Shown: one piece after another, positions 4,722 to 63,846 of the stretch
Numbering within the stretch: position 1 is the first letter of the stretch
Layout: every line of letters begins with the position of its first letter
DNA from: Lysobacter arenosi
GTDB taxonomy: Bacteria; Pseudomonadota; Gammaproteobacteria; Xanthomonadales; Xanthomonadaceae
Assembly (NCBI RefSeq): GCF_016613475.2
Contig: NZ_CP071517.1
Location: 62,001-126,000, forward strand
Reading direction: 5' to 3'
DNA length: 64,000 nt
Notes under the pieces: model-generated
Told to the model about the DNA's origin: nothing
Databases searched by the model: none
Seen by the model: the letters and a program-made list of their open reading frames with translations, nothing else
Made by a program: the position numbers and the translations under genes

Positions 4722-4852
4722 ATCGCTCCCTCCTGAGTGGTTGGGTGACGCGAGCGCATCCTAGCACCGGGCCCCGGTGCGCAATCCCTCCCCCCTGGCG
4801 GGGAGGGACACGCCGCCTATGGCGGCCAGAGGGGAAGGGGAGGGCGAGGCCC

Positions 4853-47084: not shown

Positions 47085-47182
47085 TTTCCCGGTGGAGCCG
47101 TGAACCCGGGATCGGGTAGGCTCCTTTTGCGCGCCTTGGGGACCAGCCGGTCGGGGTGCGCCAACGACCTTGGGGAAGGAAA

Positions 47183-49177: not shown

Positions 49178-49188
49178 TCGCCGTAACG

Positions 49189-49217
49189 AAAGAGGGGCTG
49201 CATGGCAGCCCCTCTTT
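49189..49217. terminator. Bidirectional terminator between S9 peptidase and POT transporter
   Basis: A perfect 13-bp stem (AAAGAGGGGCTGC / GCAGCCCCTCTTT, three-base loop) ends in a T-rich arm on each strand. It lies between convergent genes. Confidence 0.88.
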
Positions 49218-49244
49218 CTATCTGGAAGTGTCGCAGGCGGACTG

Positions 49245-51032
49245 TTACTTCACGCCGTGCATCATCCGTCGCAGCATCGGCGAAGCGATCAGTGCGACCA
49301 CGGCCCAGCCGATACCGATCCACATCATCAGCCAGAACAGGCTTTCGTACTTGCTGCCGGCGACGGCGAAGTCGAGCGTGGTGCCTTCGGGGATGTCGAT
49401 CGCGGCGAGCTTGCCGAACAGAGCGGCCAGGGTTTCCGAGAATGCGGTGGCGAGGAACCACGTGCCCATCATCAGGCTGACCACGCTCTTGACCGACAAC
49501 TGCGTCACCGCCGCCAGGCCGACAGGTGCCAGGCACATTTCGCCGATCTCCAGCACCAGGTAGGCCAATACCAGCCACCACACGCTGGCGACTTCGCCCG
49601 ATGCGCCGGCTTGCTGTGCTGCCATCGCCAGCGGGATGAAGCTCAGTCCCGCGAACAACAGGCCGAAGGCCGACTTCACCGGCTTGGACGGGTCCATGCC
49701 GCGGCGGTCGAGCACATCCCACAGGCGACCGAACAGCGGTGCCAGCAGCACCAGGAACAACGCGCCCAGGTAGGTCAGCGAGCCGGCCGTCTGCGGCAGC
49801 ACCAGGCAGTCGCGCAGCAGGAATACCAGCATCACCAGCACGGCCGATGCGAACAGCACCTTGGGCATGCGCGACTCGGGATGGCGGTCCGACAGCGCCG
49901 CCGAGACCATGAACGCCAGCGGCGCCAGCAGCAGCGAAATCGTCGACCACGGCCACGGCGTACCTTCGCGGATCACCAGCGACGGCGCCACGTCCTTGGT
50001 CAGCATGCGATCGGTGAAGGTGACCCACGAGCCATAGGTCTGCTCGTACAGGGTGAAGAACACCAGGCACATGAAGATCATCGCCAGCAACGAGATCATC
50101 TGCTGCCGTTGCACTTGCGTGCACCGCGCAGTGACGAACCAGGCGAACCAGGCCAGCACCGCCAGCATCACCAGCAGCATCAACAGCAGCGCCAGCGAAA
50201 CCTCGCCACCGAGGGCGAAGCGGCCGTTGGCCACGGCCCACATCAGCGCCGCGACCGGTACCAGGCCCAGCATCGTGCCCAGGTAGATCGCCCACTCGCG
50301 CGGCAGGCCGAACACACGCTCACGCAGGCGTGCAGGGTCCGGCGGTTCGGCGTGGCCGTGCAGGTACTTCTGGCCCCACAGGAACTGCCCCAGGCCCAGC
50401 AGCATGCCGATGCCGGCCGCGCCGAAGCCCCAGTTCCAGCCCAGCGTCTGGCCGAGGTAGCCGCACACCAGCGAGGCGAAGAGCGCGCCCAGGTTGATGC
50501 CGGCGTAGAACAGCGAGAAGCCCGAATCGCGGCGCGGATCGTTGTCGGGATACAGGCGCCCGACGATCGTGGAGATGTTGGGCTTGAGGAAACCTACACC
50601 GAGGATGATCAGCGACAGCGACAGGTAGAACACCCGCAGCGAGCCTTCGTCGCGCACCACCACGCCGTTGGTGATCGTCGCGGCATGGCCTTCCACCGCC
50701 ATGCCCAGATGGCCGGCGACCAGCAGCAGGCCGCCGAACACCACCGCCTTGCGCATGCCCAGGAAACGGTCGGCCAGCAGGCCACCGACCACGGGCAGGC
50801 AGTAGACCAGGCCGCCGTAGGCGCCGAGCACGTCCAGGCCGGAGCGGTCGCCGAATTTGTGGTGCTGCAGCAGGTACAGCAGCAGCAGCGCCTTCATGCC
50901 GTAGAAGGAGAAGCGCTCCCACATCTCGGTGAAGAAACAGACGTAGACGCCCTTGGGGTGGCCGAAGAGCTCATCGCGGGCGTCGCGGATGACGACGTCG
51001 CCGGGGACGGCCGGGGCAGCGATGGTGGACAT
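49245..51032 (-). CDS. POT family proton-dependent peptide transporter
   Basis: MFS-type oligopeptide importer of 595 residues with about 12-14 membrane segments. The POT signature is present as TEMWERFSFYGMKALLLLYL (ExxER), then LGVGFLKPNISTIVGRLY and FSLFYAGINLGALFASLVCGYLG. With the OPT transporter and two S9 peptidases it forms a peptide-scavenging neighbourhood. It is divergent from the OPT gene. ATG at 51032 is preceded by a weak ribosome site. Confidence 0.92.
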   Translation of the reverse strand: MSTIAAPAVPGDVVIRDARDELFGHPKGVYVCFFTEMWERFSFYGMKALLLLYLLQHHKFGDRSGLDVLGAYGGLVYCLPVVGGLLADRFLGMRKAVVFGGLLLVAGHLGMAVEGHAATITNGVVVRDEGSLRVFYLSLSLIILGVGFLKPNISTIVGRLYPDNDPRRDSGFSLFYAGINLGALFASLVCGYLGQTLGWNWGFGAAGIGMLLGLGQFLWGQKYLHGHAEPPDPARLRERVFGLPREWAIYLGTMLGLVPVAALMWAVANGRFALGGEVSLALLLMLLVMLAVLAWFAWFVTARCTQVQRQQMISLLAMIFMCLVFFTLYEQTYGSWVTFTDRMLTKDVAPSLVIREGTPWPWSTISLLLAPLAFMVSAALSDRHPESRMPKVLFASAVLVMLVFLLRDCLVLPQTAGSLTYLGALFLVLLAPLFGRLWDVLDRRGMDPSKPVKSAFGLLFAGLSFIPLAMAAQQAGASGEVASVWWLVLAYLVLEIGEMCLAPVGLAAVTQLSVKSVVSLMMGTWFLATAFSETLAALFGKLAAIDIPEGTTLDFAVAGSKYESLFWLMMWIGIGWAVVALIASPMLRRMMHGVK

Positions 51033-51171
51033 GGGCGATCCGTGACTGAAGTCGCCGAATTCTAGGCCCTGGAGGGGGGGCTGCGCGCATCGCCGGCACC
51101 GCCCGGGGCCGATGTACGGCGCGCCGGCCGGTCTGCAATACTCGCCCGAACTTCAGCAGGGGCCCGATCCA

Positions 51172-53178
51172 GTGACCAGCACCAGCCTGTCCGACACCGC
51201 GCCGCGTACCGAACTGACTGTACGCAGCCTCATCCTCGGCGTCGTCATCACGCTGCTGTTCACCGCGGCCAACGTGTTCTTCGGCCTCAAGGCCGGCCTG
51301 ACCTTCGCCACGTCGATTCCGGCGGCGGTGATATCGATGGCCCTGCTGCGCAATTTCAAGGACTCCACGATCCAGGAAAACAACATCGTGCAGACCGTCG
51401 CCTCCTCGGCGGGCACGCTGTCGTCGATCATCTTCGTCCTGCCGGGCCTGGTGATGATCGGCTGGTGGACCGGCTTCCCCTACTGGGAGTCGTTCGCGAT
51501 CTGCGCCCTGGGCGGCATCCTCGGCGTGATGTATTCGATCCCGCTGCGGCGCGCGCTGGTGACCAATTCCGACCTGCCGTATCCGGAAGGCGTGGCCTGT
51601 GCCGAGGTGCTGAAGGTTGGCAGCGGCGGTGACTCCTCCACGGCATCGGGCGTCGAGGAAAGCCGCTACGGTTTGCTGGCGGTGGTCTGGGGCTCGGTCG
51701 TGGCCGCGGCGTTTTCGCTGATCGTCGCCACCCGCATCTTCGGTTCCAATGTTGGCGCCTACTTCCGCCTCGGCGGCGACCGCGGCGGCGTCACCGGTTT
51801 CGATTTCACCCTGTCGATGGCGCTGCTCGCGGTCGGCCACCTGGTTGGCCTGTGGGTTGGCGTGGCGATGGGCGTGGGCGCGCTGATCGCCTGGGGCTGG
51901 GCCGTGCCGCACTACTCGGCACTGGCCGCCACGGCGGGTCCTGCGGCCGACCTGGGCCAGGCGACGTGGGCAACCTACGTGCGCTTCATCGGTGCCGGCA
52001 CCATTGGCGTGGCCGCGATCTGGACGCTGGCCAAACTGGTCAAGCCGGTCGTCAGCGGCCTGTCCTCGGCGATGGCCGCCTCGCGCATTCGCAAGGCCGG
52101 CCAGGCCGGTTCATTGCCGCGCCAGGAACAGGACATCCCGATCGGCGTCGTCGGCCTGATCTCCATCGCCTGCTTCATCCCGATCGCCTTCCTGCTGGGC
52201 CACTTCGCCCTCGGCAGCGGCCTGGGCGAGCACATGTGGAAGCTGGTCATCGGCGGCCTGCTCTACGTCATCGTGATGAGCTTCCTGGTGTCGGCGGTGT
52301 GCGGCTACATGGCCGGCCTGATCGGCTCGTCCAACAGCCCGCTGTCGGGCATCGGCATCCTGGTGGTGATCGGCGCGGCGCTGTTGCTGGTCTTCGGCAT
52401 CAAGCCGCTGCTGGCGCCGGGCAACGAGAAGGGCCTGGTCGCGTTCGCGCTGTTCGTCACCGCGGTGGTGTTTGCGGTGGCGACCATCGCCAACAACAAC
52501 CTGCAGGACCTCAAGACCGGGCAACTGGTCGACGCCACACCGTCCAAGCAGCAGTGGGCACTGGTCGTCGGCGTGCTGGCCGGCGCGGCGATCATTCCGC
52601 CGATCCTCGACCTGCTCAACCAGGCTTACGGCTTCACCGGTGCGCCGGGTGCGGTGCCGGGCCGCGCGCTGGCCGCGCCGCAGGCTGGCCTGATTTCGGC
52701 GCTGGCGCAGGGCGTGATCCTGGGCAACATCGACTGGAGCCTGATCCGCATCGGCGCCTACATCGGCGCCGGCCTCATCGTCATCGACATCATCCTGCGC
52801 CGGACCACCAAGTCGGCGCACCTGTCGCCGCTGGCGGTCGGCCTAGGCATCTACCTGCCGACCTCGGCGACGCTGATGGTGGTGGTCGGCGCGGTCATCG
52901 GCTGGCTCTACGACCGCCGTGCCGAGCGCAGCGCCAAGCCCGAGTCGACCAAGCAGATGGGCGTGCTGCTGGCCTCGGGCATGATCGTCGGCGAAGGCCT
53001 GATCGGCGTGGCGATCGCAGCGATCGTGGCGTTCTCCGGGGAAGACTTCCCGCTGGGCCTGGTCGGCGACGGCTTCGCCGGTCCGGCGGTGTGGATCGGC
53101 GGCGCGGCATTCGTCGCGGCGGTGTTCGTGCTGTATCGCTGGGCCGAGCGCGTCAGCGCGAAGGCCGCCGCGGCCTGA
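51172..53178 (+). CDS. OPT family oligopeptide transporter
   Basis: Integral membrane importer of 668 residues with about 15 predicted helices. Family signatures include FGLKAGLTFATSIPAAVISMALLR, TIQENNIVQTVASSAGTLSSIIFVLP, LRRALVTNSDLPYPEGVACAEVLKVG and a final EGLIGVAIAAIVAF. The GTG at 51172 (MTSTSLSDTAPRTELTV) is preferred, with CAGGGG upstream; ATG 51112 would add 20 residues. Substrates in bacteria of this family (small peptides, possibly metal chelates) are poorly known. Confidence 0.9.
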   Translation: MTSTSLSDTAPRTELTVRSLILGVVITLLFTAANVFFGLKAGLTFATSIPAAVISMALLRNFKDSTIQENNIVQTVASSAGTLSSIIFVLPGLVMIGWWTGFPYWESFAICALGGILGVMYSIPLRRALVTNSDLPYPEGVACAEVLKVGSGGDSSTASGVEESRYGLLAVVWGSVVAAAFSLIVATRIFGSNVGAYFRLGGDRGGVTGFDFTLSMALLAVGHLVGLWVGVAMGVGALIAWGWAVPHYSALAATAGPAADLGQATWATYVRFIGAGTIGVAAIWTLAKLVKPVVSGLSSAMAASRIRKAGQAGSLPRQEQDIPIGVVGLISIACFIPIAFLLGHFALGSGLGEHMWKLVIGGLLYVIVMSFLVSAVCGYMAGLIGSSNSPLSGIGILVVIGAALLLVFGIKPLLAPGNEKGLVAFALFVTAVVFAVATIANNNLQDLKTGQLVDATPSKQQWALVVGVLAGAAIIPPILDLLNQAYGFTGAPGAVPGRALAAPQAGLISALAQGVILGNIDWSLIRIGAYIGAGLIVIDIILRRTTKSAHLSPLAVGLGIYLPTSATLMVVVGAVIGWLYDRRAERSAKPESTKQMGVLLASGMIVGEGLIGVAIAAIVAFSGEDFPLGLVGDGFAGPAVWIGGAAFVAAVFVLYRWAERVSAKAAAA

Positions 53179-53318
53179 CTTGGCGGCCAGGCCAACTGGC
53201 CTGAACAGGGGGCGCCGGCCAACCGGCAAACCCGGCAATGACGGCGGGCGCATTGGCCTTTGCGGCCGCCGTCACGGACGCCTAACATCGACGGTCTTTG
53301 TACTCAGCTGGAGCCGTC

Positions 53319-55388
53319 ATGACGTTTCGCCGCGCCCTTCTGCCGCTGATGTTGGCGGCCGCGCTGTCCCCCCTTGCCGCCTCGGCCGCCCCGCGTGGCT
53401 TCGAAGTCCGCGACATGGCCACCCTCGACCGCGTCTCGTCGCCGACCCTGTCGCCCGACGGCCGTCGCGTCGTGTTCGCCAAGCGCGTGGTCGATTTCGC
53501 CGCCAACAAGGGTGCCTCGTCGTTGTGGATCGAGGACCTGTTCGCGCGCGATGCCGCGCCGCCGGTGCGACTGACGCCGGAAGGCTGGAACGTCAACTCG
53601 CCGAGCTTCTCGGCCGACGGCAAGACCGTCTATTTCCTCAGCGCCAAGTCGGGCAGCTCGCAGCTGTACTCGATCCCGGCCAGCGGCGGCACGCCGAAGC
53701 AGCTGACCGCGTTTTCCACCGACGTGGGCGGTTACAAGCTCTCGCCCGATGGCAAGCGCATCGCCTTCAACGCCGAAGTTTTCGCCGACTGCAAGGGCGA
53801 CTTCGCCTGCTCGGCCAAGCGCCTGGACGACAAGGGCAAGCAGAAGAACAGCGGCATGCTGTTCGACCGCATCTTCATCCGCCACTGGGACGCCTGGAAC
53901 GACGGTCGCCTCAACCGCCTGTTCGTGACGGCGGTGACCGACAAGCCGGCAACCACGGCGACGCTGGTCAGCTTTGATGTGATCGGCGACGTGCCGTCGC
54001 GTCCGTTCGGTGACAGCAGCGAATACACCTGGGCGCCGGACGGGCAGAGCCTGGTGTTCAGCGCTCGCATCGCCGACGCCAAGGAACCGACTTCGACCAA
54101 CTTCGACCTCTACCAGGTCAGTGCCGACGGTACCGGCACGGCGAAGAACCTGACCACGGCCAATCCCGCCTGGGACACCGGCGCCACGTTCAGCGCCGAC
54201 GGCAAGACCCTCTACTACCGCGCGATGAAGCGCCCGGGCTTTGAGGCCGACCGCTTCGCGCTGATCGCGCTCGACCTGGCCAGCGGCCAGCGTCGCGAGA
54301 TCGCACCGCAGTGGGACCGCTCGGCGGACGGCATCACCCTGTCGGCCGACGGCAAGAGCATCTATACGACCGCGACCGACATGGGCGAGCACCCGCTGTT
54401 CGCCGTCGACATCGCCAGCGGCAAGGCCAGCAAGCTGATCGGCGAAGGCAGTGTGTCGGCCATCGACCTGGCCGGCCCGACGCTGGCGCTGACGCGCAAC
54501 TCGCTCAAGAGCGGCGACGTGCTGTACACCACCAGCAGCGATGCCACCGCGCCGCTGCGCGCGATCACCGCGACCACCGGCGAAACGCTGAAGGACGTCG
54601 CGTTCGGCGACTTCGAGCAGTTCAACTTCAAGGGCTGGAACGGCGACACCGTGCACGGCTACGTGGTCAAGCCGTGGAACTACGTCGAGGGCAAGAAGTA
54701 CCCGGTCGCGTTCCTGATCCACGGCGGCCCGCAGGGCAGCTTCGGCAACGGCTGGAGCTACCGCTGGAACCCGCAGACGTACGCGGGCCAGGGCTACGCG
54801 GTGGTCATGATCGACTTCCACGGTTCCACCGGTTACGGCCAGGCATTCACCGACGCGATCAGCCAGCACTGGGGCGACCGCCCGCTGGAAGACCTGCAGA
54901 AGGGCTGGGCCGCGGCGCAGCAGAAGTACGGCTTCCTCAACGGCGACAAGGCTTGCGCGCTGGGCGCCAGCTACGGCGGCTTCATGGTCAACTGGATCGC
55001 CGGCAACTGGAACCAGCCGTGGAAGTGCCTGGTCAACCACGACGGCGTGTTCGACCAGCGCATGATGGGCTTCGCCACCGAAGAGCTTTGGTTCACCGAG
55101 TGGGAGCAGGGCGGCACCGCGATCGACAAGGCCGCCAACTACGAGAAGTTCAACCCGGTCAACCACGTCAAGGATTGGCGAGTGCCGATGCTGGTCGTGC
55201 ACGGCCAGCTCGACTTCCGCATTCCGGTGGAGCAGGGCATCGGCGCCTTCACCACGCTGCAGCTCAAGGGCATCGAGTCGAAGTTCCTGTACTTCCCGGA
55301 CGAGAACCATTGGGTGCTCAAGCCGCAGAACTCGGTGCAGTGGCATGACACGGTCAATGCCTGGCTGAAGCAGCACATCGGCGAGTAA
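53319..55388 (+). CDS. S9 family dipeptidyl/acyl-peptidase
   Basis: Second exported S9 peptidase, 689 residues. A signal peptide (about 1-24, LAAALSPLAASA) is followed by WD40-like propeller repeats (SPTLSPDGRRVVFA, SPSFSADGKTVYFLS, YKLSPDGKRIAFNA) and a hydrolase domain. The nucleophile is in ALGASYGGFMVNW, the acid in VVHGQLDFRIPVEQG and the His in PDENHWVLKPQN. It has the DPP4-like IDFHGSTGYGQAFTDAI. It differs clearly from the enzyme at 47183, so the two are not a recent duplication. Confidence 0.92.
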   Translation: MTFRRALLPLMLAAALSPLAASAAPRGFEVRDMATLDRVSSPTLSPDGRRVVFAKRVVDFAANKGASSLWIEDLFARDAAPPVRLTPEGWNVNSPSFSADGKTVYFLSAKSGSSQLYSIPASGGTPKQLTAFSTDVGGYKLSPDGKRIAFNAEVFADCKGDFACSAKRLDDKGKQKNSGMLFDRIFIRHWDAWNDGRLNRLFVTAVTDKPATTATLVSFDVIGDVPSRPFGDSSEYTWAPDGQSLVFSARIADAKEPTSTNFDLYQVSADGTGTAKNLTTANPAWDTGATFSADGKTLYYRAMKRPGFEADRFALIALDLASGQRREIAPQWDRSADGITLSADGKSIYTTATDMGEHPLFAVDIASGKASKLIGEGSVSAIDLAGPTLALTRNSLKSGDVLYTTSSDATAPLRAITATTGETLKDVAFGDFEQFNFKGWNGDTVHGYVVKPWNYVEGKKYPVAFLIHGGPQGSFGNGWSYRWNPQTYAGQGYAVVMIDFHGSTGYGQAFTDAISQHWGDRPLEDLQKGWAAAQQKYGFLNGDKACALGASYGGFMVNWIAGNWNQPWKCLVNHDGVFDQRMMGFATEELWFTEWEQGGTAIDKAANYEKFNPVNHVKDWRVPMLVVHGQLDFRIPVEQGIGAFTTLQLKGIESKFLYFPDENHWVLKPQNSVQWHDTVNAWLKQHIGE

Positions 55389-55399
55389 TGCCTTCAAAG

Positions 55400-55426
55400 C
55401 CCCTCTCCCGCTTTTGGGGGAGGGGT
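55400..55426. terminator. GC-rich hairpin after the second S9 peptidase
   Basis: CCCCTCTCCC pairs with GGGGGAGGGG around a CTTTT loop, immediately after the peptidase stop and before the convergent nitronate monooxygenase gene. Confidence 0.7.
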
Positions 55427-55439
55427 GTGCGGCGCGACG

Positions 55440-56507
55440 TCAACGCAGCAACGCTGCCGTCTCCGCGACCAGCGCATCAAACAGTTCCTGCGCGTGCCGA
55501 TGTTTCAGCAACGGCGCGCCCTGTCCGGCCCACAGCGAAATCATGTCGCCGCGCCCCTGCGCAGCGGCCGTCGCCTTGAACGTCCCGGTGAACCAGTTCT
55601 GGATCGGGTAGGGCAGCGGCGCTACTCCTTCCCACTCCTCGACGAAGCGATTGCGGATGCCGCGCGCGAGCCGCCCGCTGAAGGCGCGCGTCAGTGCGGT
55701 GTACTTGGCGTCGTCGGTGAACAGCATCCTGCGATGCAGCTCGTTCGTACCGGATTCCTCGCAGGCCAGGAACGCCGTGCCGATCTGCACGCCCTGCGCA
55801 CCGAGTGTCAGCGCAGCAGCGACGCCACGACCGTCGGCGATGCCACCGGCGGCGATCACGGGCCTGGATACGCGATCGGCTACCTGCGGGATCAGCGCCA
55901 AGGTCCCGGTCAACGACTCTTCGGCCGAGCGCAGGAACGACACCCGATGCCCGCCTGCCTCGAAGCCGGTGGCGACAATCACGTCCACGCCGGCCTGGTC
56001 CATCGCGATCGCTTCGTCGATCGTGGTGATGGTGCCCATCGTGGCGATGCCGCGGCTCCTGCATTCCGACAGGATTGCCGGGGAGGGGATCCCGAATACG
56101 AAACTCATCACCGGCGGCGCTGCATCGAGCATGGCTTGCACCTGGTCCTCGAAGCGCTGGCCGTAGCGCTCTGGCATCGGCGGTGGCGTCATGCCGAGCG
56201 CGTCGTAGTACGGGCGAAAACGCTCGATGGCGGCAGCGAACTGGTCGGCCGATAGGCGATCGCCGCCGGGATCCTGGTTCGACACCCAAAGGTTCAACGC
56301 GAACGGCCGCTGCGTGCGCGCGCGGATCTGCCGGGTGAGATCGCCGAGCTTCTCCGGGGCAAGATGGTGCGCGCCGAACGAGCCCAGGCCACCGGCCTCG
56401 GAAACGGCGACCATCAGATCGATCGAAGACAGTCCGCCACCGAACGGTCCCTGCACGATCGGATAGCGCAGGCCCAGGCGCCGGGTGAAGTCGTTGTCAT
56501 GCCACAT
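55440..56507 (-). CDS. Nitronate monooxygenase (NPD family)
   Basis: FMN-dependent TIM-barrel enzyme of 355 residues that oxidises alkyl nitronates, or a related enzyme such as an enoyl reductase-like 2-nitropropane dioxygenase. Motifs are YPIVQGPFGGG, SEAGGLGSFGA, ATGFEAGGHRVSFL (FMN/catalytic His region), RPVIAAGGIADGRGVAAALTLGAQGVQIGTAFL. The ATG at 56507 (MWHDNDFTRRLGLRYPIV) fits. Its 5' end borders the cassette array. Confidence 0.88.
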   Translation of the reverse strand: MWHDNDFTRRLGLRYPIVQGPFGGGLSSIDLMVAVSEAGGLGSFGAHHLAPEKLGDLTRQIRARTQRPFALNLWVSNQDPGGDRLSADQFAAAIERFRPYYDALGMTPPPMPERYGQRFEDQVQAMLDAAPPVMSFVFGIPSPAILSECRSRGIATMGTITTIDEAIAMDQAGVDVIVATGFEAGGHRVSFLRSAEESLTGTLALIPQVADRVSRPVIAAGGIADGRGVAAALTLGAQGVQIGTAFLACEESGTNELHRRMLFTDDAKYTALTRAFSGRLARGIRNRFVEEWEGVAPLPYPIQNWFTGTFKATAAAQGRGDMISLWAGQGAPLLKHRHAQELFDALVAETAALLR

Positions 56508-56794
56508 GGCATCACTCCGTTGCGGGAAAGGGCGTCCGGGCCGCAGGGGCCGGAACGTGGTGCCAACTCTAGGAGTAATCGCGCAGCGGGCGGATGAAGG
56601 CAGGCATCCGAACAGGCGCGTCGCGTTGGGAACACCTCGCCGAACAGGCCCCGCAAGCTGGTACATTCCGGCCGGGAAGGTCCAGCGCAAAGTCGGCTGC
56701 AGTTTTCGGCTCCGGCCATGTCGCTAGGCCAGGCAGTTTGTGGTTGGGCGTCGGTGTCGTCGGGCACCCTGTGGTCCTGACGTCGCGTGGCGGC
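56508..56794. other. Boundary region between nitronate monooxygenase and the cassette array
   Basis: This is the left flank of the array and the place where an integrase gene with attI would be expected in a complete integron. It contains no integrase-like ORF. A single GTTGGGC core (56743-56749) and a loosely attC-like stretch before it (56690-56749) are too weak to call. It must also hold the promoter of the nitronate monooxygenase gene. Confidence 0.4.
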
Positions 56795-56800
56795 GCCTGA
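56594..56800 (+). CDS. Possible first cassette ORF, weakly supported
   Basis: A 68-residue frame of no recognised family. Its stop TGA falls inside the left core of the first attC, preceded by GCC (Ala), exactly as in the later cassette ORFs. That is its only support: composition is Gly/Arg-rich, no ribosome site is visible, and no complete attC lies upstream. It may be a remnant or chance frame. Confidence 0.25.
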   Translation: MKAGIRTGASRWEHLAEQAPQAGTFRPGRSSAKSAAVFGSGHVARPGSLWLGVGVVGHPVVLTSRGGA

Positions 56801-56854
56801 CAATTCATTCAAGCCGAAGCCGCTTCCTGGCTCGGCTCAATTCAGGCGTTAGGC
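56795..56854 (+). other. attC site 1 (complete)
   Basis: Left core GCCTGAC (56795-56801), right core GTTAGGC (56848-56854), 60 bp in all. Internal arms CAAGCCGAAGCC and GGCTCGGCT pair imperfectly. The left core differs from consensus RYYYAAC by one base (G for A). It has the best-preserved pair of cores in the window. Confidence 0.85.
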
Positions 56855-56875
56855 GCTCATCGGCAGGCACCGCGA

Positions 56876-57136
56876 ATGCTCAATAGGGTCGTACGAAAGC
56901 TTGGCTGGTTGTCCATCCCCGCGGGCCTCATCACCGCCGCGTTCTCCATCGCCAGCTTGTGGTTCCTTATGGCATTGAAGGACTACTCATCCACGCTTCG
57001 TGACGCTTACGAAGCTCCCCCCGGGATCACGCAGTACATCGTCTATGGGGCGGCGTGCCTTGGCCTCCTGCTACTCTTCGCGGGAGGGGTGGCGACGTTT
57101 GTTCTCGGGCTCCGGTCCGGTTCACGCGGCGCCTGA
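56876..57136 (+). CDS. Cassette-encoded two-TM membrane protein
   Basis: An 86-residue protein of no recognised family with two predicted membrane helices (about residues 11-32 and 54-78) joined by a short polar loop (KDYSSTLRDAYEAPPG). The start follows attC 1 by 21 bp and the stop TGA lies in the left core of attC 2, leaving a C-terminal RGA. No strong ribosome site is seen. Confidence 0.65.
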   Translation: MLNRVVRKLGWLSIPAGLITAAFSIASLWFLMALKDYSSTLRDAYEAPPGITQYIVYGAACLGLLLLFAGGVATFVLGLRSGSRGA

Positions 57137-57190
57137 CAATTCATTCAAGCCGACACCGCTCCGCGGTGCGGCATTGTCAGGGGGCTGGCA
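57131..57190 (+). other. attC site 2 (right core decayed)
   Basis: Left core GCCTGAC at 57131-57137 and a strong internal palindrome (GCCGACACCGC / GCGGTGCGGC). The expected GTTRRRY core at the right is replaced by GGCTGGC-like sequence, so recombination here is doubtful. Confidence 0.7.
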
Positions 57191-57534
57191 TGGCATCTGG
57201 GATTCGGTTGTTGGCTGCCGTGCTTTTAATTCTTGCGCTCGCACTGAGCTGGAAGGCAGTCTCCATGCTCGGTGCCAGTTCCCATTTTGGCAGTCCCGCC
57301 ATGCAGCTCTGCAGCGCCTTAGGTGATCCAGTGGATTTCGCGAAAGCCTGCGAGACATTCAAGTCGCAGGTTCTCGCAATGTCTGGCCAGTACAGTGAGG
57401 CCTTGAAGCTGTTGGTCATGGCCGCAATTGCCGCCTTTTTCCTCGGTGCAGCCGCGTTGAATCTTAGCTTCAGGCGGGAGGGTGCGCCCCCTGACAGTTC
57501 ACTCAAGTCGAAGCCGCTTAGCGGCTCGGCTTGA
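57190..57534 (+). CDS. Cassette-encoded two-TM membrane protein
   Basis: A 114-residue protein with membrane helices at about 5-24 and 75-92, of no recognised family. It begins at the right edge of attC 2 and, unlike its neighbours, reads through attC 3. Its last ~17 residues (PPDSSLKSKPLSGSA region) are therefore encoded by the attC, ending at a TGA within the site. A loop with two cysteines (CSALGDPVDFAKAC) lies between the helices. Confidence 0.6.
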   Translation: MASGIRLLAAVLLILALALSWKAVSMLGASSHFGSPAMQLCSALGDPVDFAKACETFKSQVLAMSGQYSEALKLLVMAAIAAFFLGAAALNLSFRREGAPPDSSLKSKPLSGSA

Positions 57535-57548
57535 CTAGGGAGTTAGGC
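57489..57548 (+). other. attC site 3 (complete)
   Basis: Left core CCCTGAC (57489-57495), right core GTTAGGC (57542-57548), 60 bp. Internal arms CAAGTCGAAGCCGC and GCGGCTCGGCTTG pair well. The right core is canonical. Confidence 0.85.
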
Positions 57549-57550
57549 CC

Positions 57551-57967
57551 GTGACAAACATCAATCGTCTCCCCACGAAGTCGGAAACATTCTTCGGGGC
57601 CATCTTCTCCGTGCTTCTGAGCTGCGGGCTTGGCTATGTGGTCTGGTACTTGCTCCGAACAGCTTCTGGTCGCCCCGAACTCCTGACGCCCGGGACAATT
57701 TCTGTCCTCGCCGTTCTTTCCATCATCTTCGCTTGGTCAAGTGCCCTGTTTCTCCGCATCCTGTTCGGCTCGCCGAAACTTCCAGGCTTCAGGGGGCAGG
57801 CCGTAATGGGCTATTTCATGGCCACCGCCGGTCTAGTTCTTTGTCTTGGCTCGATGCTGATCTCGAATCAACGCCCGGCGCTGTATTTTTCGCAAGGTGT
57901 TTGCGCAATCGGCCTTGGTCTGTTCTGGGTGGCTCAGGCGCGCAAAGCAGCGCGGCGACGGGCCTGA
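57551..57967 (+). CDS. Cassette-encoded four-TM membrane protein
   Basis: A 138-residue integral membrane protein with four likely helices (about 14-36, 47-70, 82-103 and 108-128) and a basic C-terminus (ARKAARRRA). It starts with GTG three bases after the GTTAGGC core of attC 3 and stops on the TGA in the left core of attC 4. No family recognised. Confidence 0.7.
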   Translation: MTNINRLPTKSETFFGAIFSVLLSCGLGYVVWYLLRTASGRPELLTPGTISVLAVLSIIFAWSSALFLRILFGSPKLPGFRGQAVMGYFMATAGLVLCLGSMLISNQRPALYFSQGVCAIGLGLFWVAQARKAARRRA

Positions 57968-58028
57968 CAGTTTGTTCAAGCCGAAGGCGCTTCGCGGCTC
58001 GGTTCAGTTGGAATCAGGCGGAACAGCA
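57962..58028 (+). other. attC site 4 (right core decayed)
   Basis: Left core GCCTGAC at 57962-57968 with arms CAAGCCGAAGGCGC and GCGGCTCGGTTC. Where GTTRRRY is expected the sequence is GGAACAG-like. Confidence 0.7.
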
Positions 58029-58354
58029 TGAAACTGAGTGATCTTGAAAAGTCAGCCTTGCAGCTGAACAAACTCTACGAGCAACTTGAGCTCAAGAGGT
58101 ATGGGCGCATCTGGAGCACGGAGGAGCTTGCGCTTGGTTTCGTGGGGGACGTAGGCGATCTGGCAAAACTGATCCAGGCAAACGCTGGCATCCGAACCAT
58201 TGACGACTGCAAAGCGAAACTTGGTCACGAATTGTCGGACTGTTTATGGTCGATCATTGTGCTGGCGAACAAGTGCGGCATCGACCTGGAGGCGGAGTTT
58301 GTCAAGAACACCAGGGAGCTGGCCGAGTATGTAGCTGGCGAGCTGGACACATAG
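58028..58354 (+). CDS. Cassette-encoded MazG-like nucleotide pyrophosphohydrolase
   Basis: A 108-residue all-alpha protein of the MazG-like type, predicted to hydrolyse nucleoside triphosphates to monophosphates ('house-cleaning'). The metal-binding EExxE...ExxD pattern is only partly kept. TEELALGFVGDVGDLAKLIQ has D where MazG usually has the second acidic pair. KLGHELSDCLWSIIVLANKCGIDLEAEFVKN gives the ExxD half and the typical C-terminal helix. MazG subtypes are known from Vibrio integron cassettes. It starts at the end of decayed attC 4. Confidence 0.75.
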   Translation: MKLSDLEKSALQLNKLYEQLELKRYGRIWSTEELALGFVGDVGDLAKLIQANAGIRTIDDCKAKLGHELSDCLWSIIVLANKCGIDLEAEFVKNTRELAEYVAGELDT

Positions 58355-58392
58355 AGCCTATACCGTTCCGCGGCACGGCCTGGTTATGGCAC
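58352..58392 (+). other. attC-like remnant 5
   Basis: A short stretch with AGCCTATA at the left, a CCGTTCCGCGG / CACGG palindrome, and GGTTATGGC at the right. It has the layout but neither core is canonical. Confidence 0.45.
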
Positions 58393-58405
58393 TGGGGGGA
58401 GAGTC

Positions 58406-58771
58406 ATGTCGGGGTGTGTTCTCAGGGCAGCGGGATCCGCGTTCTCGCCGGAGTCGTTCCTGGCGGCGTTCCCACTTCCAGAGGCGAATCACCGAGGCAA
58501 CGCGCTGAACGTCGTGGTCAGTGACCGTGACGGGGCGGACCTGGCGGGGCAGGTCCGCGATGCGCTGGCATTTCTTCAGTTGCACGCACCAGCCGTAAGG
58601 GCATTGCTCGCCATGCCAGGCGTCGAGGCATCGCTGGATTTTGGTTTGTGGCGCAAGGACACCTTGTCGCAGTCGGTACTGTTTCCGCCGACGCTTACGG
58701 CATTTGCTGGTGAGTTGGGGCTTGGGCTGGAGGTCTCGTTGTACGTCGCTACCCCGCCAAGGAGCATCTGA
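58406..58771 (+). CDS. Cassette-region hypothetical protein
   Basis: A 121-residue soluble protein without recognised family, with mixed helix/strand character (NALNVVVSDRDGADLAGQVRDALAFLQ). It starts 14 bp after attC-like remnant 5. No attC separates it from the next gene, so the two would share a cassette. Its own stop is not inside an attC. Confidence 0.6.
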   Translation: MSGCVLRAAGSAFSPESFLAAFPLPEANHRGNALNVVVSDRDGADLAGQVRDALAFLQLHAPAVRALLAMPGVEASLDFGLWRKDTLSQSVLFPPTLTAFAGELGLGLEVSLYVATPPRSI

Positions 58772-58812
58772 GCAGTCTTGCGATTCATCTCTCAACGGAA
58801 CAGGGGATATCC

Positions 58813-59313
58813 ATGTGGTTTGCACTGCTTGTACTCAGTCTGCTCGCTGCATCCATCCACGTTCGAGTTCGCCCGACAGGTTCCAAAGCCGCCTCGGCAG
58901 AGCTTGTGCTGGTCTACCTTCTGGCGGGCTATTGCGGGTTCGCGCAGATCATTCGCGCTTTCGCCATCCTGGTTAAGGGCGCGCCTCTCATGGCGCATGT
59001 CCAGTTCACGCCAGGCGATCCGGCCGTGATGTGGCTGGCGTTCTTCAGCCTGGGGTGTGGAGCGATTGGCGCACTCTCCATCTGGAAGCGCGGCGACTTC
59101 CTGCTTGCGCCTGTGGTGGTGTGGGCCATCTTCTGGACCGGGACCACATTCGCGCACCTTCGCATGGACGAGTGGCATGGAATCACCAACTCGTGGGTCG
59201 GCGTCGCATGGGCGTTCGCCACGCATGGGTTGATCGCCGTCCTGCTGGTCGCGTTCTACTCACTCTCGATCCGGCGTCCGCCGGTTGCATCGGGGCAAGC
59301 CTCCGCGGCCTGA
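58813..59313 (+). CDS. Cassette-encoded membrane protein (possibly DUF6790-like)
   Basis: A 166-residue protein with four predicted helices (about 2-16, 31-52, 72-90, 96-113 plus a final one near 130-150). Gly/aromatic-rich segments (LLAGYCGFAQIIRAF, GALSIWKRGDFLLAPVVVWAIFW, TFAHLRMDEWHG) faintly resemble DUF6790; confidence in that is low. The stop TGA is in the left core of attC 6, giving a C-terminal SAA. Confidence 0.7.
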   Translation: MWFALLVLSLLAASIHVRVRPTGSKAASAELVLVYLLAGYCGFAQIIRAFAILVKGAPLMAHVQFTPGDPAVMWLAFFSLGCGAIGALSIWKRGDFLLAPVVVWAIFWTGTTFAHLRMDEWHGITNSWVGVAWAFATHGLIAVLLVAFYSLSIRRPPVASGQASAA

Positions 59314-59366
59314 CCGTTCATCAAGCCGACGCCGCTTCGCGGCGCGGCTAACTCCAGGCATCAAGT
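59308..59366 (+). other. attC site 6 (right core decayed)
   Basis: Left core GCCTGAC at 59308-59314 and the strongest internal palindrome of the array (GCCGACGCCGC / GCGGCGCGGC, TTC loop). The right core reads ATCAAGT where GTTRRRY is expected. Confidence 0.75.
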
Positions 59367-59390
59367 GGCAATGCAAACTCTGCGCAGCTT

Positions 59391-59726
59391 GTGCTTTTGC
59401 AAGGCTTGCTCTACGGGTTCGGCGCCGTAGGGCTCTTTGCAATTGGCGCACTGCCGTTGCGTACTTACATGATTGCGGTTCGATTGAAGGCTGCTTCAAG
59501 ACCTGCCTGGCAATTGTTGACGGTCTTGACCGTTGCGCTCGGTTCGATGGTTCTGTCCAGCCAGTTTCTGCTCCAACTAGGCAGATGCCTCTTGGGGTAT
59601 CACTGCTCGGCAAACGCTGCCGGAGGCTGGATCAACTCCGCGTTCCTGGGCGCAATCTATGTGTCCTTCGAGATTGTGGCCTTTGTTGTTTTCCGGGTTG
59701 GCGGACTTCGCCGCTTCTCACCCTGA
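59391..59726 (+). CDS. Cassette-encoded three-TM membrane protein
   Basis: A 111-residue membrane protein with helices near 3-21, 40-60 and 83-103, and a CLLGYHC pair of cysteines between the last two. GTG at 59391 is assumed; no ribosome site is clear. The stop TGA falls in the left core of decayed attC 7. Its codons are visibly richer in A/T than those of flanking chromosomal genes. No family recognised. Confidence 0.6.
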   Translation: MLLQGLLYGFGAVGLFAIGALPLRTYMIAVRLKAASRPAWQLLTVLTVALGSMVLSSQFLLQLGRCLLGYHCSANAAGGWINSAFLGAIYVSFEIVAFVVFRVGGLRRFSP

Positions 59727-59783
59727 TGTTTAATTAAAGTCGGCGCCATTTTTCGGCTCGGCCAGGTTCACGCGTCCAGGCTG
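59721..59783 (+). other. attC site 7 (decayed)
   Basis: Left core CCCTGAT at 59721-59727, arms AAAGTCGGCGCC and GGCTCGGCC. The right core is not recognisable (GTCCAGGC-like). Position and the upstream stop codon support it more than the sequence. Confidence 0.55.
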
Positions 59784-59816
59784 CGCGATAATGGCATCCA
59801 ACGACAGGAGGCCGAC

Positions 59817-60065
59817 ATGCTTCAGATGCGTCCAGGCTGTGAGTGCTGCAATGTTGATCTGGCGCCGGATTCGCAAGACGCCTGGATCTGTTCGTTTGAG
59901 TGCACGTTCTGCACGAATTGTGTTGAATCAAAGCTGGGCGGTCGCTGTCCCAACTGCGGGGGGGCGTTCTCCAGGCGTCCCACTCGTGTCGGAGGCGCTC
60001 TGGAAAGAAATCCGGCATCGACAGTGCGCGTGTTCAAACCCAGTGGCTGTGCTCCTGCGGCCTGA
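59817..60065 (+). CDS. Cassette-encoded DUF1272 protein
   Basis: An 82-residue cysteine-rich protein of the DUF1272 family, probably a zinc-binding treble-clef or ribbon. The pattern MLQMRPGCECCNVDLAPDSQ, ICSFECTFCTNCVESKLGG, RCPNCGGAFSRRP with CxCC, CxxxCxxC..C and CxxC is nearly the family consensus. An AGGAGG site precedes the ATG. The stop TGA is in attC 8. Its function is unknown. Confidence 0.85.
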   Translation: MLQMRPGCECCNVDLAPDSQDAWICSFECTFCTNCVESKLGGRCPNCGGAFSRRPTRVGGALERNPASTVRVFKPSGCAPAA

Positions 60066-60123
60066 GAAGTCATCCAGCCCAGCACGCGAACCAGAGAGTT
60101 CGCGCTCCGAGACCCTGTTGGGG
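60060..60123 (+). other. attC site 8 (near-canonical right core)
   Basis: Left core GCCTGAG at 60060-60066, internal palindrome GCACGCGAAC / GTTCGCGCT, right core GTTGGGG at 60117-60123 (only the last base departs from GTTRRRY). It is the right-hand end of the contiguous array. Confidence 0.6.
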
Positions 60124-60361
60124 ACTACGTCATGGTCATCGCACTGAGGCCGGGCTGACGCGGCAGACCGGTCGGCGAAAGAATTTGTGGCGATCGTCAC
60201 GTTAATGGGAGGCGCCTCATCGGCAGCCCGCTGAGAATTTTTCTCGCGTGCTGGCTCAACGGTCCCAGCGGGCAAACTTCCGGGGCGTCTCCCATGCTTG
60301 AATGAGCGTTCGACGGCTCAGGGAACCTGCTGGGGAGCGGGTGGGGCCAGGAGGGGATTGC
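60124..60361. promoter_or_regulatory. Upstream region of the autotransporter gene
   Basis: 238 bp between attC 8 and the autotransporter start. It must hold its promoter. An AGGAGG ribosome site lies at about 60348-60354, and the stretch TGAGAATTTTTCTCG includes a short palindrome (GAGAA / TTCTC). No clear -35/-10 pair was identified. Confidence 0.4.
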
Positions 60362-63300
60362 ATGGAAAAGATGCTCGTTCGCGTGCCGCTGGCTCGCGCC
60401 GTCATGCTGTGTCTTGCCGTTTCGCTTGCAGGCTGCGGAGGCGGCGGCGGTGGCGGTAATGTCCGAAGCGATCCGCCGCCACCGGCACCTGTGATCACCC
60501 CGCCCGTCACGCCTCCTGTGACGCCGCCGGTCACGCCTCCAGTCAATCCTCCAGTCACGCCTCCGGTCACGCCTCCGGTCACACCACCGGTGACGCCTAT
60601 CCCGACGGGCCTGGTGATGCCGACGCGCCTCGACGCACCGCCCGCCGTGGGCGACGAGCATCTGCGGGTGATGCACGCGGTCGATGCGCACCTCAATGGC
60701 CACAAGGGCAACGGGCAGTTCATTGCGCTGTTCGATACCGGAGCGCTGCGCACTCCCGCGCTCGACCAGCACCTTTGGTGGAGTAATGACTCCGACCTCG
60801 TTGACCGCGACCACGCCGATTACACCCGTGACGACGTCAACGGACACGGCACGGCGACCGCTTTGGCAGCCATCGGTCGCGCCCAGGGCAGCTGGAGCGG
60901 CGGCATCGCACCCGATGCAAACCTGTCGGTCATGCGGATCATTCCCGATCAACCCACGCTCGGGAATCCGTTTGGCCAACCCACGGTGGAAGCCGGCCTG
61001 ACTGCGCTGGAGCGTGGCCTGTCCGGCAAGAGCGCATTCACCCGGGCGGCCGGCTTCACCTGGGATGGAAACTTCCAGTGGACCGATCCGGCCATCTCGA
61101 CCCGCCTTTTCAATGCGTTCGCAACCTTCGTGGACTCGTCGACCAATTTCCCTCCGGACGACGGACTGGTGGTCTTCGCGGCCGGCGATGGCGGCAAGGC
61201 CGAACCGAGCCAGATGGCGAAGCTTCCCAGCCTTGCCGGTGCACCTGCCTCACTGGCGGATCACTGGATCACCGTTGCGGCGGTGGAGACTGCTCGTCCC
61301 AACCGTCTGGCGGCGTACTCCAACGGCTGCGGCGCCGCGATGAACTACTGCCTGGTCGCACCGGGCGACATGACGCTCGTGGGCAAGGACGACACCGCGG
61401 GCAATCCCACCTACTGGACGATGAGCAGCACGCAAGTCGCCGCTCCGCTGGTGCTGGGTGCCACCACACTGGTCTGGGGAGCGTTTCCGAACCTGAGCGG
61501 CGAGCAGGTGCGCGACATCCTGCTCGGCACGACCACCGATCTCGGCGTTCCGGGTACCGACCCGATCTTCGGTCAGGGCCTCATCAACATCGAGAAGGCG
61601 CTGCGCGGCCCGGGTCGCCTCGATTGGGGCGACATGAATGTCTTCCTGCTCTACGACACCGACACGATCTGGTGGAACGACATCTCCGGACGCGCCGGAA
61701 TCAATGTCACCGGTTCCGGCGGTTGGCTCCTCCTGCATGGCAACAACACCTTCGAGGGGCCGCTTCACATCAAGGGAAGAGCCGACGTCACCGTCAATGG
61801 CAGCCTGGCCGCCGACATCGAAATCGAGCGCGATGGCTTGCTTTACGCCTCGGAAGTGACACTGGAAGGCGACGTCACCAATCGCGGCAGCCTGCTGTTC
61901 AACACCAGCGCTACACCGCAAAGCCCGACGGTGATGAAGGGTGACGTGATCAATGAAGGCTTCATGGCCAACTGGGGCAATACCGACGCTACGACGATGG
62001 AAGGAAACTTGACGCTGCGCGCGTCCAGTCTCTACCAGATCGAGCTGGGCGCGCCCCCGCTGCACGTCAATGGCCATGCCGATATCGACGGCAAGCTGCA
62101 AGTCGTGGGCGTCGCACCCGGCTACGTGGCGCGCAGCAACACCGAAGTTCTGATTGCCGATGGCGGCATCGACGGGACCTTTTCCGAACTCAAGCTGATG
62201 GGTCTGATGGTGCAGGCGACGCTGGGTTACGACGCAAATCGCGTCTGGCTTGACGTCACCCAGATCCCGGCCACCACCGCCGTTGGCATGGCCTTCACGC
62301 CGGCCAGCTTCAGCGCGGCTGAGCGACTGGACGGGGCATTCGGGAAACTCGACGAGCGCGAAGCGCGCAAGTCGGGCAACTCCGCCGACCGCGACCGCGA
62401 CGATGTCGCCGCGTTCGCCAATGGCGCAGGCACGCTGCAGCGCATCGCCGATCAAGGTGCACTGCAGGAATCGCTCGACAGCCTTTCGGGCGAGCTGCAT
62501 GGTGCCGACCTGCCGTTTGCCACGATGGCGATCGAGGACAATCGACACGCGCTGGAGTCGCGAATCGACGCACTTCGCGAGGGGCCTGCCGGCATCTGGA
62601 CGGATGAACTGCGCTCGCGCCGTGAGATGGGTCGCTTCGACATGGATGCCCAGGGTTGGACGATGGGCATGGACCTGCGCCACGACAATCGCCTGACGGT
62701 TGGCGCTGCGCTGTCCGAAGTGAATGGCACGGCTTACCACGCACAACGTGGCGATCGCGAAGTGAATCGCCAATACGACGGCCAGCTCTACGCCACTTGG
62801 GCGCTGGGCAGCGGTTACCTGCTCGGCACGACGTCGTTCGGTCAGATGCAGCGTTGGACCCGGCGCGAAGTCCTGCTCGGCGCGAACGCTTTCCGTGTCG
62901 GCACCGACTACACGCAGCGCTATGCGACGGCGGGCCTGCAGGCGGGAATGCCACTGGCATGGAACAGCGGTTCTGTCACGCTCTACGGCGGTGCGCAGGG
63001 CATGCAGTTCGAACGCAATGGCTTTGATGAATCCGGCGCCGCCGGTTTCGGCCTGACCACGCAGGACTCGACGCTGCATGCAGCGCAGGCACACCTCGGC
63101 ACTCGCCTGCAGCAGGAAGGCAGCATCGGCCCGGTCACCTGGCGCTTGCACGGGCGACTGGAATGGCAGCGCATGCTGTCAACGTCCGGCGAGGAGCTGC
63201 AGGCCCGCTTCTCCGCGGTGGATGCATGGGCGCCGGTGGATGTCGAGGGTCTCGCGCGCGAAGCCGGCGTGTTCGGCCTCGGCTTCGACGCGCGGTTCGG

Positions 63301-63394
63301 TCGTCGTGGCGTCCTCGGCCTCAACGTCGATTCGCGCCGGGAGCATGGGGAAATCTGGAGTGGGGCGATGGCCACCTGGTCGGTCGCGTACTGA
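60362..63394 (+). CDS. Lipidated subtilisin-fold (S8) autotransporter, active site apparently lost
   Basis: A 1010-residue outer-membrane autotransporter. A lipoprotein signal ends VSLAGC, followed by a Gly run and a tandem PPVT-type repeat (about residues 42-80). The S8 domain (about 85-420) keeps Asp in LFDTGALRTP and His in DVNGHGTATA. The serine motif GTSMAAP reads SSTQVAAP (Ser to Gln), and the oxyanion AAGN reads AAGDGG. A beta-helix-like stalk (GPLHIKGRADVTVNGSLAADIEIERDGLLY) and a barrel from about 730 to the final Tyr follow. Layout recalls Neisseria NalP, a lipidated S8 autotransporter, but catalysis seems unlikely. ATG 60362 has AGGAGG upstream; 60302 would bury the lipobox. Confidence 0.88.
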   Translation: MEKMLVRVPLARAVMLCLAVSLAGCGGGGGGGNVRSDPPPPAPVITPPVTPPVTPPVTPPVNPPVTPPVTPPVTPPVTPIPTGLVMPTRLDAPPAVGDEHLRVMHAVDAHLNGHKGNGQFIALFDTGALRTPALDQHLWWSNDSDLVDRDHADYTRDDVNGHGTATALAAIGRAQGSWSGGIAPDANLSVMRIIPDQPTLGNPFGQPTVEAGLTALERGLSGKSAFTRAAGFTWDGNFQWTDPAISTRLFNAFATFVDSSTNFPPDDGLVVFAAGDGGKAEPSQMAKLPSLAGAPASLADHWITVAAVETARPNRLAAYSNGCGAAMNYCLVAPGDMTLVGKDDTAGNPTYWTMSSTQVAAPLVLGATTLVWGAFPNLSGEQVRDILLGTTTDLGVPGTDPIFGQGLINIEKALRGPGRLDWGDMNVFLLYDTDTIWWNDISGRAGINVTGSGGWLLLHGNNTFEGPLHIKGRADVTVNGSLAADIEIERDGLLYASEVTLEGDVTNRGSLLFNTSATPQSPTVMKGDVINEGFMANWGNTDATTMEGNLTLRASSLYQIELGAPPLHVNGHADIDGKLQVVGVAPGYVARSNTEVLIADGGIDGTFSELKLMGLMVQATLGYDANRVWLDVTQIPATTAVGMAFTPASFSAAERLDGAFGKLDEREARKSGNSADRDRDDVAAFANGAGTLQRIADQGALQESLDSLSGELHGADLPFATMAIEDNRHALESRIDALREGPAGIWTDELRSRREMGRFDMDAQGWTMGMDLRHDNRLTVGAALSEVNGTAYHAQRGDREVNRQYDGQLYATWALGSGYLLGTTSFGQMQRWTRREVLLGANAFRVGTDYTQRYATAGLQAGMPLAWNSGSVTLYGGAQGMQFERNGFDESGAAGFGLTTQDSTLHAAQAHLGTRLQQEGSIGPVTWRLHGRLEWQRMLSTSGEELQARFSAVDAWAPVDVEGLAREAGVFGLGFDARFGRRGVLGLNVDSRREHGEIWSGAMATWSVAY
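60483..60605 (+). repeat. Tandem 12-bp repeat encoding the Pro-Pro-Val-Thr stretch
   Basis: About nine imperfect 12-bp units of the type CCTCCGGTCACG encode PPVT or PPVN. Units stay in frame on gain or loss, so copy number can vary without breaking the gene. It forms a rigid Pro-rich linker between the lipid anchor and the passenger. Confidence 0.75.
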
Positions 63395-63412
63395 GGCCAG
63401 CGCCGCGGCTCG

Positions 63413-63431
63413 CATGACTCAGGCGATGGGC
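63413..63431 (+). other. Half-attC-like remnant after the autotransporter
   Basis: GACTCAGGCGATGGGC resembles the right half of the array's attC sites (ACTCAGGCGTTAGGC), with two mismatches in the core. No left core is present. It could mark the old left edge of the cassette that follows. Confidence 0.35.
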
Positions 63432-63556
63432 AACCAGGTTCCATCGCCGTATGCGGTGCCTCGTCGGGGATTCTGGCCGGTACGTCGCAGGCTGGTTGCT
63501 AAAGGCCTTTACGGCCGGCAACGTCCCCACTTCTGTCAGTCACAGGGAGACTGGGT

Positions 63557-63793
63557 ATGAAGGCGCTCATTGCCATTGTCGCGTGGTGCATCCTGTTCGT
63601 TCTTTGCTGGCCGCTGGCGCTGCTGGCGTTGGTCCTCTGGCCCATTGCCTGGCTGGTATCCCTTCCGTTTCGTCTCGTCGGCGTCACGTTCTCTGCGCTG
63701 TTCGCACTGTTGGGGGCTATCCTTTTCCTGCCTGCCCGGATCCTGGGGTGGCGTTCCGGATCAACGCAGCCGCGCAGCGCGGCCGTGGCCTGA
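63557..63793 (+). CDS. Small two-TM membrane protein, cassette-like
   Basis: A 78-residue hydrophobic protein (helices about 4-32 and 38-64) with a short polar tail (RSGSTQPRSAAVA). AGGGAGA lies before the ATG. The stop TGA lies in GCCTGAA, the left core of an attC-like site, repeating the pattern of the main array. No family recognised. Confidence 0.7.
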   Translation: MKALIAIVAWCILFVLCWPLALLALVLWPIAWLVSLPFRLVGVTFSALFALLGAILFLPARILGWRSGSTQPRSAAVA

Positions 63794-63846
63794 ACGTTCG
63801 TTCAAACCGAACCTGCCGTGATTCGGTTGCTGGCCTGAAGGGGGGT
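63788..63846 (+). other. attC site 9 (decayed)
   Basis: Left core GCCTGAA at 63788-63794, arms CAAACCGAA and TTCGGTTG around a CCTGCCGTGA loop. The right core is lost (GAAGGGG-like). Orientation matches the main array. Confidence 0.6.

Follow-up and report, generated by a model that had tools for sequence, protein, structure and literature searches.

The stretch of DNA analysed here (the window, 64 kb) spans bases 62001-126000 of a genome assembled as one contig of 3,947,892 bp. It holds an array of small plus-strand genes, all of them open frames, that alternate with attC sites of integron cassettes. This array is very probably the remnant of an integron that this Lysobacter-like lineage had in its chromosome, after the integrase gene (intI) and the site attI were lost in place. 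The main reason is that in two relatives, G010 and Lysobacter prati, intI has on one side the nitronate monooxygenase (NMO) gene that also borders the window array and on the other side an attC array, G010 having the same far flank as well.

attC sites of the array

We used a family-specific covariance model, R1, to locate attC sites. A pattern search in the arrays of the intI-bearing congeners G010 and G004 gave 45 matches (35 distinct); R1 was built on the 27 distinct sites that are 60 nt long, leaving aside 8 that differ in length and taking in no window sequence. R1 describes an attC hairpin in which two positions of the left arm bulge out; across its training sites, pairing is found in 94.9% of cells and double-sided changes in 33 cells vs 14.2 in shuffles. 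Paired outer and inner boxes, unpaired spacers and one-arm bulges, the hallmark of attC, are all present when counted on these 27 reference sites.

In the 64 kb, searched on both strands, R1 matched five plus-strand sites within 56795-59366 (39.9-77.4 bits), the next-best match having an E-value of 0.73. All five align to R1 positions 1-60. The first (56795-56854, E 1.7e-21) retains both cores, GCCTGAC on the left and GTTAGGC on the right, and the third (57489-57548, E 1.3e-13) retains the GTTAGGC right core; the right core is decayed in the second (57131-57189, 45.9 bits, E 1.6e-11), the fourth (57962-58019, 39.9 bits, E 1.2e-9) and the fifth (59308-59366, 44.1 bits, E 5.6e-11). The right core of attC has a consensus of the GTTRRRY type, which is thus found in only two of the five sites (at 56848 and 57542). 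A sequence-only reading of this DNA had stated that most right cores were decayed, which holds, and had placed left cores at 56795, 57131, 57489, 57962 and 59308 and right cores at 56848 and 57542, exactly where we found them; the two sites on which it most depended, 56795 and 57489, score well with R1 (77.4 and 52.5 bits). Its count of about eight attC sites, seven of them listed, stands for the five that pass R1 but not for those at 59721 and 60060, which fall below threshold. When the bottom strand was folded, z-scores were -2.7 (56795), -5.5 (57131), -3.0 (57489), -0.7 (57962) and -4.8 (59308), the lowest-energy fold not always being the canonical one.

Decayed sites were tested by local alignment to four attC consensus strings, compared with 4000 random 90-nt pieces from window 1-56500. 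The sequence at 59721-59781 (plus strand, as are all remnants below) is a decayed attC (alignment level 0.00075; R1 7.2 bits, E 1.6, filters off, 56400-60400), given that the attC at this position is still intact in the homologous cassette of L. prati. At 60060-60125 lies a possible remnant of a left half only, with a 20-nt R1 match of 5.6 bits in the same filters-off search; alone it is not significant (alignment level 0.16), a similar left half stands behind the copy of the adjacent gene (DUF1272) in G008, and its identity as attC is weakly supported. A likely remnant follows the gene ending at 58354 (58345-58392, level 0.007, limits set by eye), an attC-like remnant is found at about 63370-63431, at the end (63394) of a gene for an S8 peptidase autotransporter (level 0.0015), and a decayed attC closes the cassette of a 78-aa gene (63788-63842, level 0.007), this site being intact in the homologous G010 cassette. 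By local alignment, no attC trace was detected behind the genes ending at 58771 and 64236. An Rfam scan of the window gave no match, a promoter scan of 56400-60400 found none (0.7 expected), and the same interval contains 4 terminator-like sites vs 4.2 expected.

The locus with and without its integrase

On its left, the array is bordered by the NMO gene (55440-56510, minus strand; PF03060, 258.9 bits), beyond which lies a peptidase gene (53298-55388) that we take to be of the S9 type. Window 47730-56601 corresponds to G010 1442292-1433374 with 88.6% identity, and the right flank is also common to both, window ~64860 onward (in the adjoining contig sequence) corresponding to G010 1418570 and below. 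In G010, intI (1432389-1433330) adjoins the NMO counterpart and the array continues from there, with 28 attC by R1. In the window, NMO-side homology to both relatives stops at 56601/56602 and homology to the inside of a G010 cassette starts from 56644; compared with G010, this junction (56602-56643) lacks intI and attI. No trace of intI was detected in the window (best match to the G010 IntI at E 0.07), which therefore lacks the pair, an intI gene with attI, that makes an integron complete. G010-array homology recurs at window 63400-63810 and the array extends to about 64860, past the window end, so that the end at 60123 set by the sequence-only reading was too short.

The left border is seen a second time in L. 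prati (L100), which is 90.9% identical to window 45437-56602. There, a homologue of IntI (83-86% to that of G010) lies directly beside the NMO gene, and 20 attC matches were found beyond it by profile search. Because this homologue is read in two frames it is probably frameshifted, and the L. prati integrase (L100:8838-9867, NZ_VLNV01000006.1) is thus probably inactive too, unless the shift is a sequencing error.

To search for integrases across genomes we used the TIGR02249 profile (cut-off 265 bits). The sequence-only reading had seen no integrase, and indeed no match over the cut-off was found in the whole genome that contains the window (best 74.7 bits); IntI passes in 2 of 11 other members of the genus (474-475 bits). 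With five attC sites and no IntI over the cut-off in a single-contig genome, cluster of attC sites lacking an integrase (CALIN), the label already given by that reading, is the right name. In the other 10 congeners, matches to the S9 peptidase and to the right flank are 0.4-10.5 kb apart and the stretch between them has no R1 match at E 0.01; the integron was therefore either acquired by this subgroup or lost in the others. In G004, 99 attC matches are spread over several contigs, with intI on another contig than the S9/right-flank locus.

By the standard mechanism of integrons, cassettes would have been captured at attI and excised via the folded bottom strand of attC as long as IntI was there. 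At this locus, a deletion would have removed intI, attI and some first cassettes, leaving a left junction that joins the NMO upstream region to a cassette interior. Deprived of IntI, the remaining cassettes would no longer have been excised, shuffled or replenished, and since they no longer moved, selection on the attC hairpins would have ceased and the sites would have started to decay; useful genes with their own expression signals may persist. The locus would then be a clean case of CALIN origin, the same site being found with an open intI (G010), with a two-frame homologue (L. prati) and with intI missing (window), and it could help to date the decay of attC sites once the integrase is gone.

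Could the cassettes instead have been deposited at a secondary genomic site (attG) by an IntI acting in trans, intI never having been here? Cassettes do land away from the integron: this genome has ten further attC, spread over six other places, and the available part of PMC12444791 gives seven non-ilvD loci with CALINs for those Xanthomonas species that are represented by more than ten genomes. However, intI lies exactly at this locus in the relatives, with both flanks in G010 and the left flank in L. prati, as expected of descent from a sedentary chromosomal integron. This synteny disfavours a secondary-site origin of the window array, which we consider improbable.

The state of the sites agrees with loss of the integrase. 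Scored with R1, the five window sites have a median of 45.9 bits, as against 73 for the ten other sites of the same genome, which played no part in building R1, and 79.7 for the 28 G010 sites, a comparison that favours G010 because part of its sites built R1. The two most distal attC of G010 are poor too (38.0 and 35.8 bits), and the window retains a counterpart of the cassette that lies between them. As the sequence-only reading had proposed, the array appears old and mostly immobile, which the low median score and the decayed cores support but do not prove. These same data bear on whether the array is still active via an integrase provided in trans, for example from a plasmid missing in the assembly. 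The genome is rated 98.16% complete, so that a plasmid could be missing, the site at 56795 looks intact, and five of the ten dispersed sites score 76-87 bits; but most window sites have decayed cores and the genome encodes no IntI over the cut-off, making such activity very unlikely. There is next to no chance that the palindromes are an unrelated dispersed repeat: similar sequences do occur at several other places of the genome, but R1, derived from the arrays of IntI-bearing genomes, matches the window sites end to end, and 177 of 186 attC matches in the fetched loci have a same-strand frame of at least 50 aa ending within 60 nt (about 40% at random places; overlapping loci included). Chance or an unrelated repeat is rejected by this independent covariance model.

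Several points, besides the advantage of G010 in the score comparison, weigh against the loss of intI and attI in place. The deletion is deduced from three genomes, and the L. prati comparison covers the left border only. R1 is a family-specific model distinct from that of IntegronFinder, and further pair types in its training set are not above shuffles (reached by 158 of 500). Right cores are poor at three of the five window sites (57131, 57962 and 59308), and the fold of the 57962 site is no better than shuffles, of which 44 of 200 are as good. Finally, the S8 autotransporter gene and two genes in 63849-64817 (partly beyond the window) are putative cassettes only.

Cassette genes and their relatives

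All the genes of the array listed here are on the plus strand. The first cassette (56644-56794) is truncated and has no gene assigned; its positions 56644-56730 match a portion of a G010 cassette (1428057-1427968) with 84% identity. At least three cassettes of G010 have stretches related to this segment (84%, 72% and 72%; L030:4969-5058, 4652-4744 and 1573-1665), and the truncated cassette is, judging by sequence similarity, of the kind found in those three. It is followed by genes of 86 aa (56876-57136) and 114 aa (57190-57534), neither with a family match, the latter with a relative in the array of L. prati that aligns in two pieces (58-68%), and by a gene of 138 aa (57551-57967) that scores 20.6 bits with Cation_efflux, under the cut-off of 26.6. 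Next come a gene of 108 aa, a relative of MazG-like proteins and dCTP pyrophosphatases (58028-58354; 83% DNA identity to a distal G010 cassette), a gene of 121 aa without a family match (58406-58771), a DUF6790 gene of 166 aa (58813-59313; 81% DNA identity to a cassette of the intI-bearing G004 array) and a gene of 111 aa (59391-59726), with a 72% relative in the L. prati array that has an intact attC behind it. The DUF1272 gene (82 aa, 59817-60065; Pfam 94.5 bits) has relatives at other loci in G008, G009 and G010. In five cases (genes starting at 56876, 57551, 58813, 59391 and 59817) the stop lies 5 nt inside the site that follows.

The S8 peptidase autotransporter gene (60362-63394) stands within the array and may be an unusually large cassette, since its stop falls in an attC-like remnant. 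It also has partial matches (67-71%) to another locus of its own genome (C1:1438419-1442265). The last cassette gene in the window encodes 78 aa (63557-63793), window 63400-63810 being 74% identical to a G010 cassette (1430249-1429831). Few cassette proteins are named by Pfam, NCBIfam or PHROGs. Past the window end, a VOC-like protein (L075:1850-2236) scores 27.3 of 140 bits with bleomycin-binding models, far under their cut-offs, and no resistance function is therefore claimed.

At the thresholds used, G010 shares the MazG-like gene (58028) and the 78-aa gene (63557), in opposite order, plus the fragment at 56644; G004 shares the DUF6790 gene and L. prati two others. Cassette content and order in the window differ from those of all three, and the lack of a conserved gene order with G010 and L. 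prati leaves the cassette assignment of the sequence-only reading standing.

Dispersed attC sites and an 88-bp hairpin repeat

The whole genome has 16 R1 matches at E 0.01 and 15 at E 0.001; five lie in the window and ten are the dispersed sites. At four of the six dispersed places, the last attC runs directly into an 88-bp repeat (three by profile, one by eye) of sequence GAATGTCCGCTTCTGGCCGATAGCGGACATT ... GCTAATGTCCGCTTTCGACCCAAAGCGGACATT. Although its hairpin is attC-like, by sequence this repeat is not attC; it forms one long hairpin with a variable loop, a fold that has hardly any covariation support (0.1 kcal/mol). Among the fetched loci, attC and repeat are joined in the same register in 8 of 8 matches (6 distinct loci plus one orthologue and one duplicate). 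Fused attC sites and left repeat ends were seen at L024:4836-4985, L026:5321-5475, L028:4539-4684, L099:4334-4481, L091:9420-9556 and L196/L197; all but the one in L091 have GTTGGC in the right core.

Elsewhere the 88-bp repeat forms arrays of its own (L090, L091, L092, L093 and L094, in G002, G008, G011, G008 and G007, respectively, and L201-L203 in G050). These run in one direction, often with one small gene per unit and a spacing of mostly about 300-600 bp. In repeat-rich loci of six genus members, all 94 pairs of neighbouring repeats that score 30 bits or more and are closer than 1.5 kb point the same way (147 of 148 pairs when weaker copies are included), as do 48 of 48 close pairs in a second genus; because G008 and G009 share some loci, not all pairs are independent. 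A same-strand frame of at least 50 aa ends within 60 nt of the left end in 122 of 150 copies; the mirrored side gives 67 and random places give 57. Between G008 and G009, orthologous arrays differ in entire units, the breaks falling within repeats, and once in a repeat with little else, and such exchanges could be explained by homologous recombination between repeats. Some proteins of the repeat units have relatives among integron cassettes; the window gene at 57551-57967, for its part, has a relative in an 88-bp-repeat array of G008 (L197:6900-7520, 62.7% over 126 aa).

A model of the repeat, R2, matches 38 of 149 genomes of the family and, in a class-wide sample of 274 genomes, 11, among them the genome of the window; per-genome match numbers include some sites matched on both strands. 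Among the 12 family genomes with at least five R2 matches, 9 have no IntI match and 6 no attC match. No copy of the repeat was seen in the window, where a 13-base piece of it gave one match with two mismatches (1.9 expected). The repeat had no match in plasmids and no Rfam match in the three loci scanned, and matched one viral contig. No recombinase family common to the fetched 88-bp-repeat arrays was found; tyrosine recombinases are found near some clusters in the five genomes searched. A literature search by repeat sequence, and by title and abstract on cassette arrays, found no account of it. If the repeat is a recombination site, Lysobacteraceae might conceivably carry two parallel cassette systems, the attC integron and the 88-bp repeat, that share one gene pool and, in this genus, pass genes between them, an idea we put forward tentatively and regard as somewhat doubtful. 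Were it true, the second system would offer genes a way to outlive the loss of intI. These arrays look like a newer side find, a lead rather than a result about the window, and would matter more than the CALIN if proved to be a recombination system.

Place among known integrons and CALINs

Among 149 genomes of the family, R1 matches 127 at E 0.001 and an IntI match at E 1e-60 or better is found in 101 (100 over the TIGR02249 cut-off). At least two attC matches without such an IntI match occur in 30 genomes, five of them single-contig, a number that may be too high because draft genomes may miss intI. The CALIN of the window is an ordinary one, of a kind common in the family. A larger integrase-less array, with 19 attC by R1, is found in G002 (L079:4811-12617, at about 3.731-3.739 Mb of G002:C1), whose genome is a single contig and has no IntI above the cut-off. 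The sequence-only reading had called chromosomal cassette arrays outside Vibrio under-described, which is partly true, but CALINs and inactivated integrons have been described in Xanthomonas: according to the available text of PMC12444791, CALINs at places other than ilvD occur in about half of the genomes, and a working intI has been lost in several species.

Among the closest known systems is the G010 integron, with which the window array shares its locus, its attC type and some of its cassettes; in contrast to it, the window copy has no intI or attI, and of its dozen or so units several lack an attC that can be recognised. The ilvD integron of Xanthomonas, with intI inactivated or deleted, is a parallel case: as far as the accessible part of PMC12444791 goes, it likewise sits at a fixed chromosomal site in related bacteria, has lost intI repeatedly and in lineage-specific fashion, and its arrays then cease changing. 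The window locus differs in its genus and in its position, next to an S9 peptidase and a nitronate monooxygenase and not at ilvD. Finally, the CALINs of IntegronFinder (PMC9024848, in the part at hand) are likewise defined by at least two attC without IntI, have fewer attC than complete integrons on average, and were proposed to be degraded integrons. What sets the present array apart from them is that the integrase-bearing state of its locus is visible in relatives, so that the route, loss of intI in place, is directly readable.

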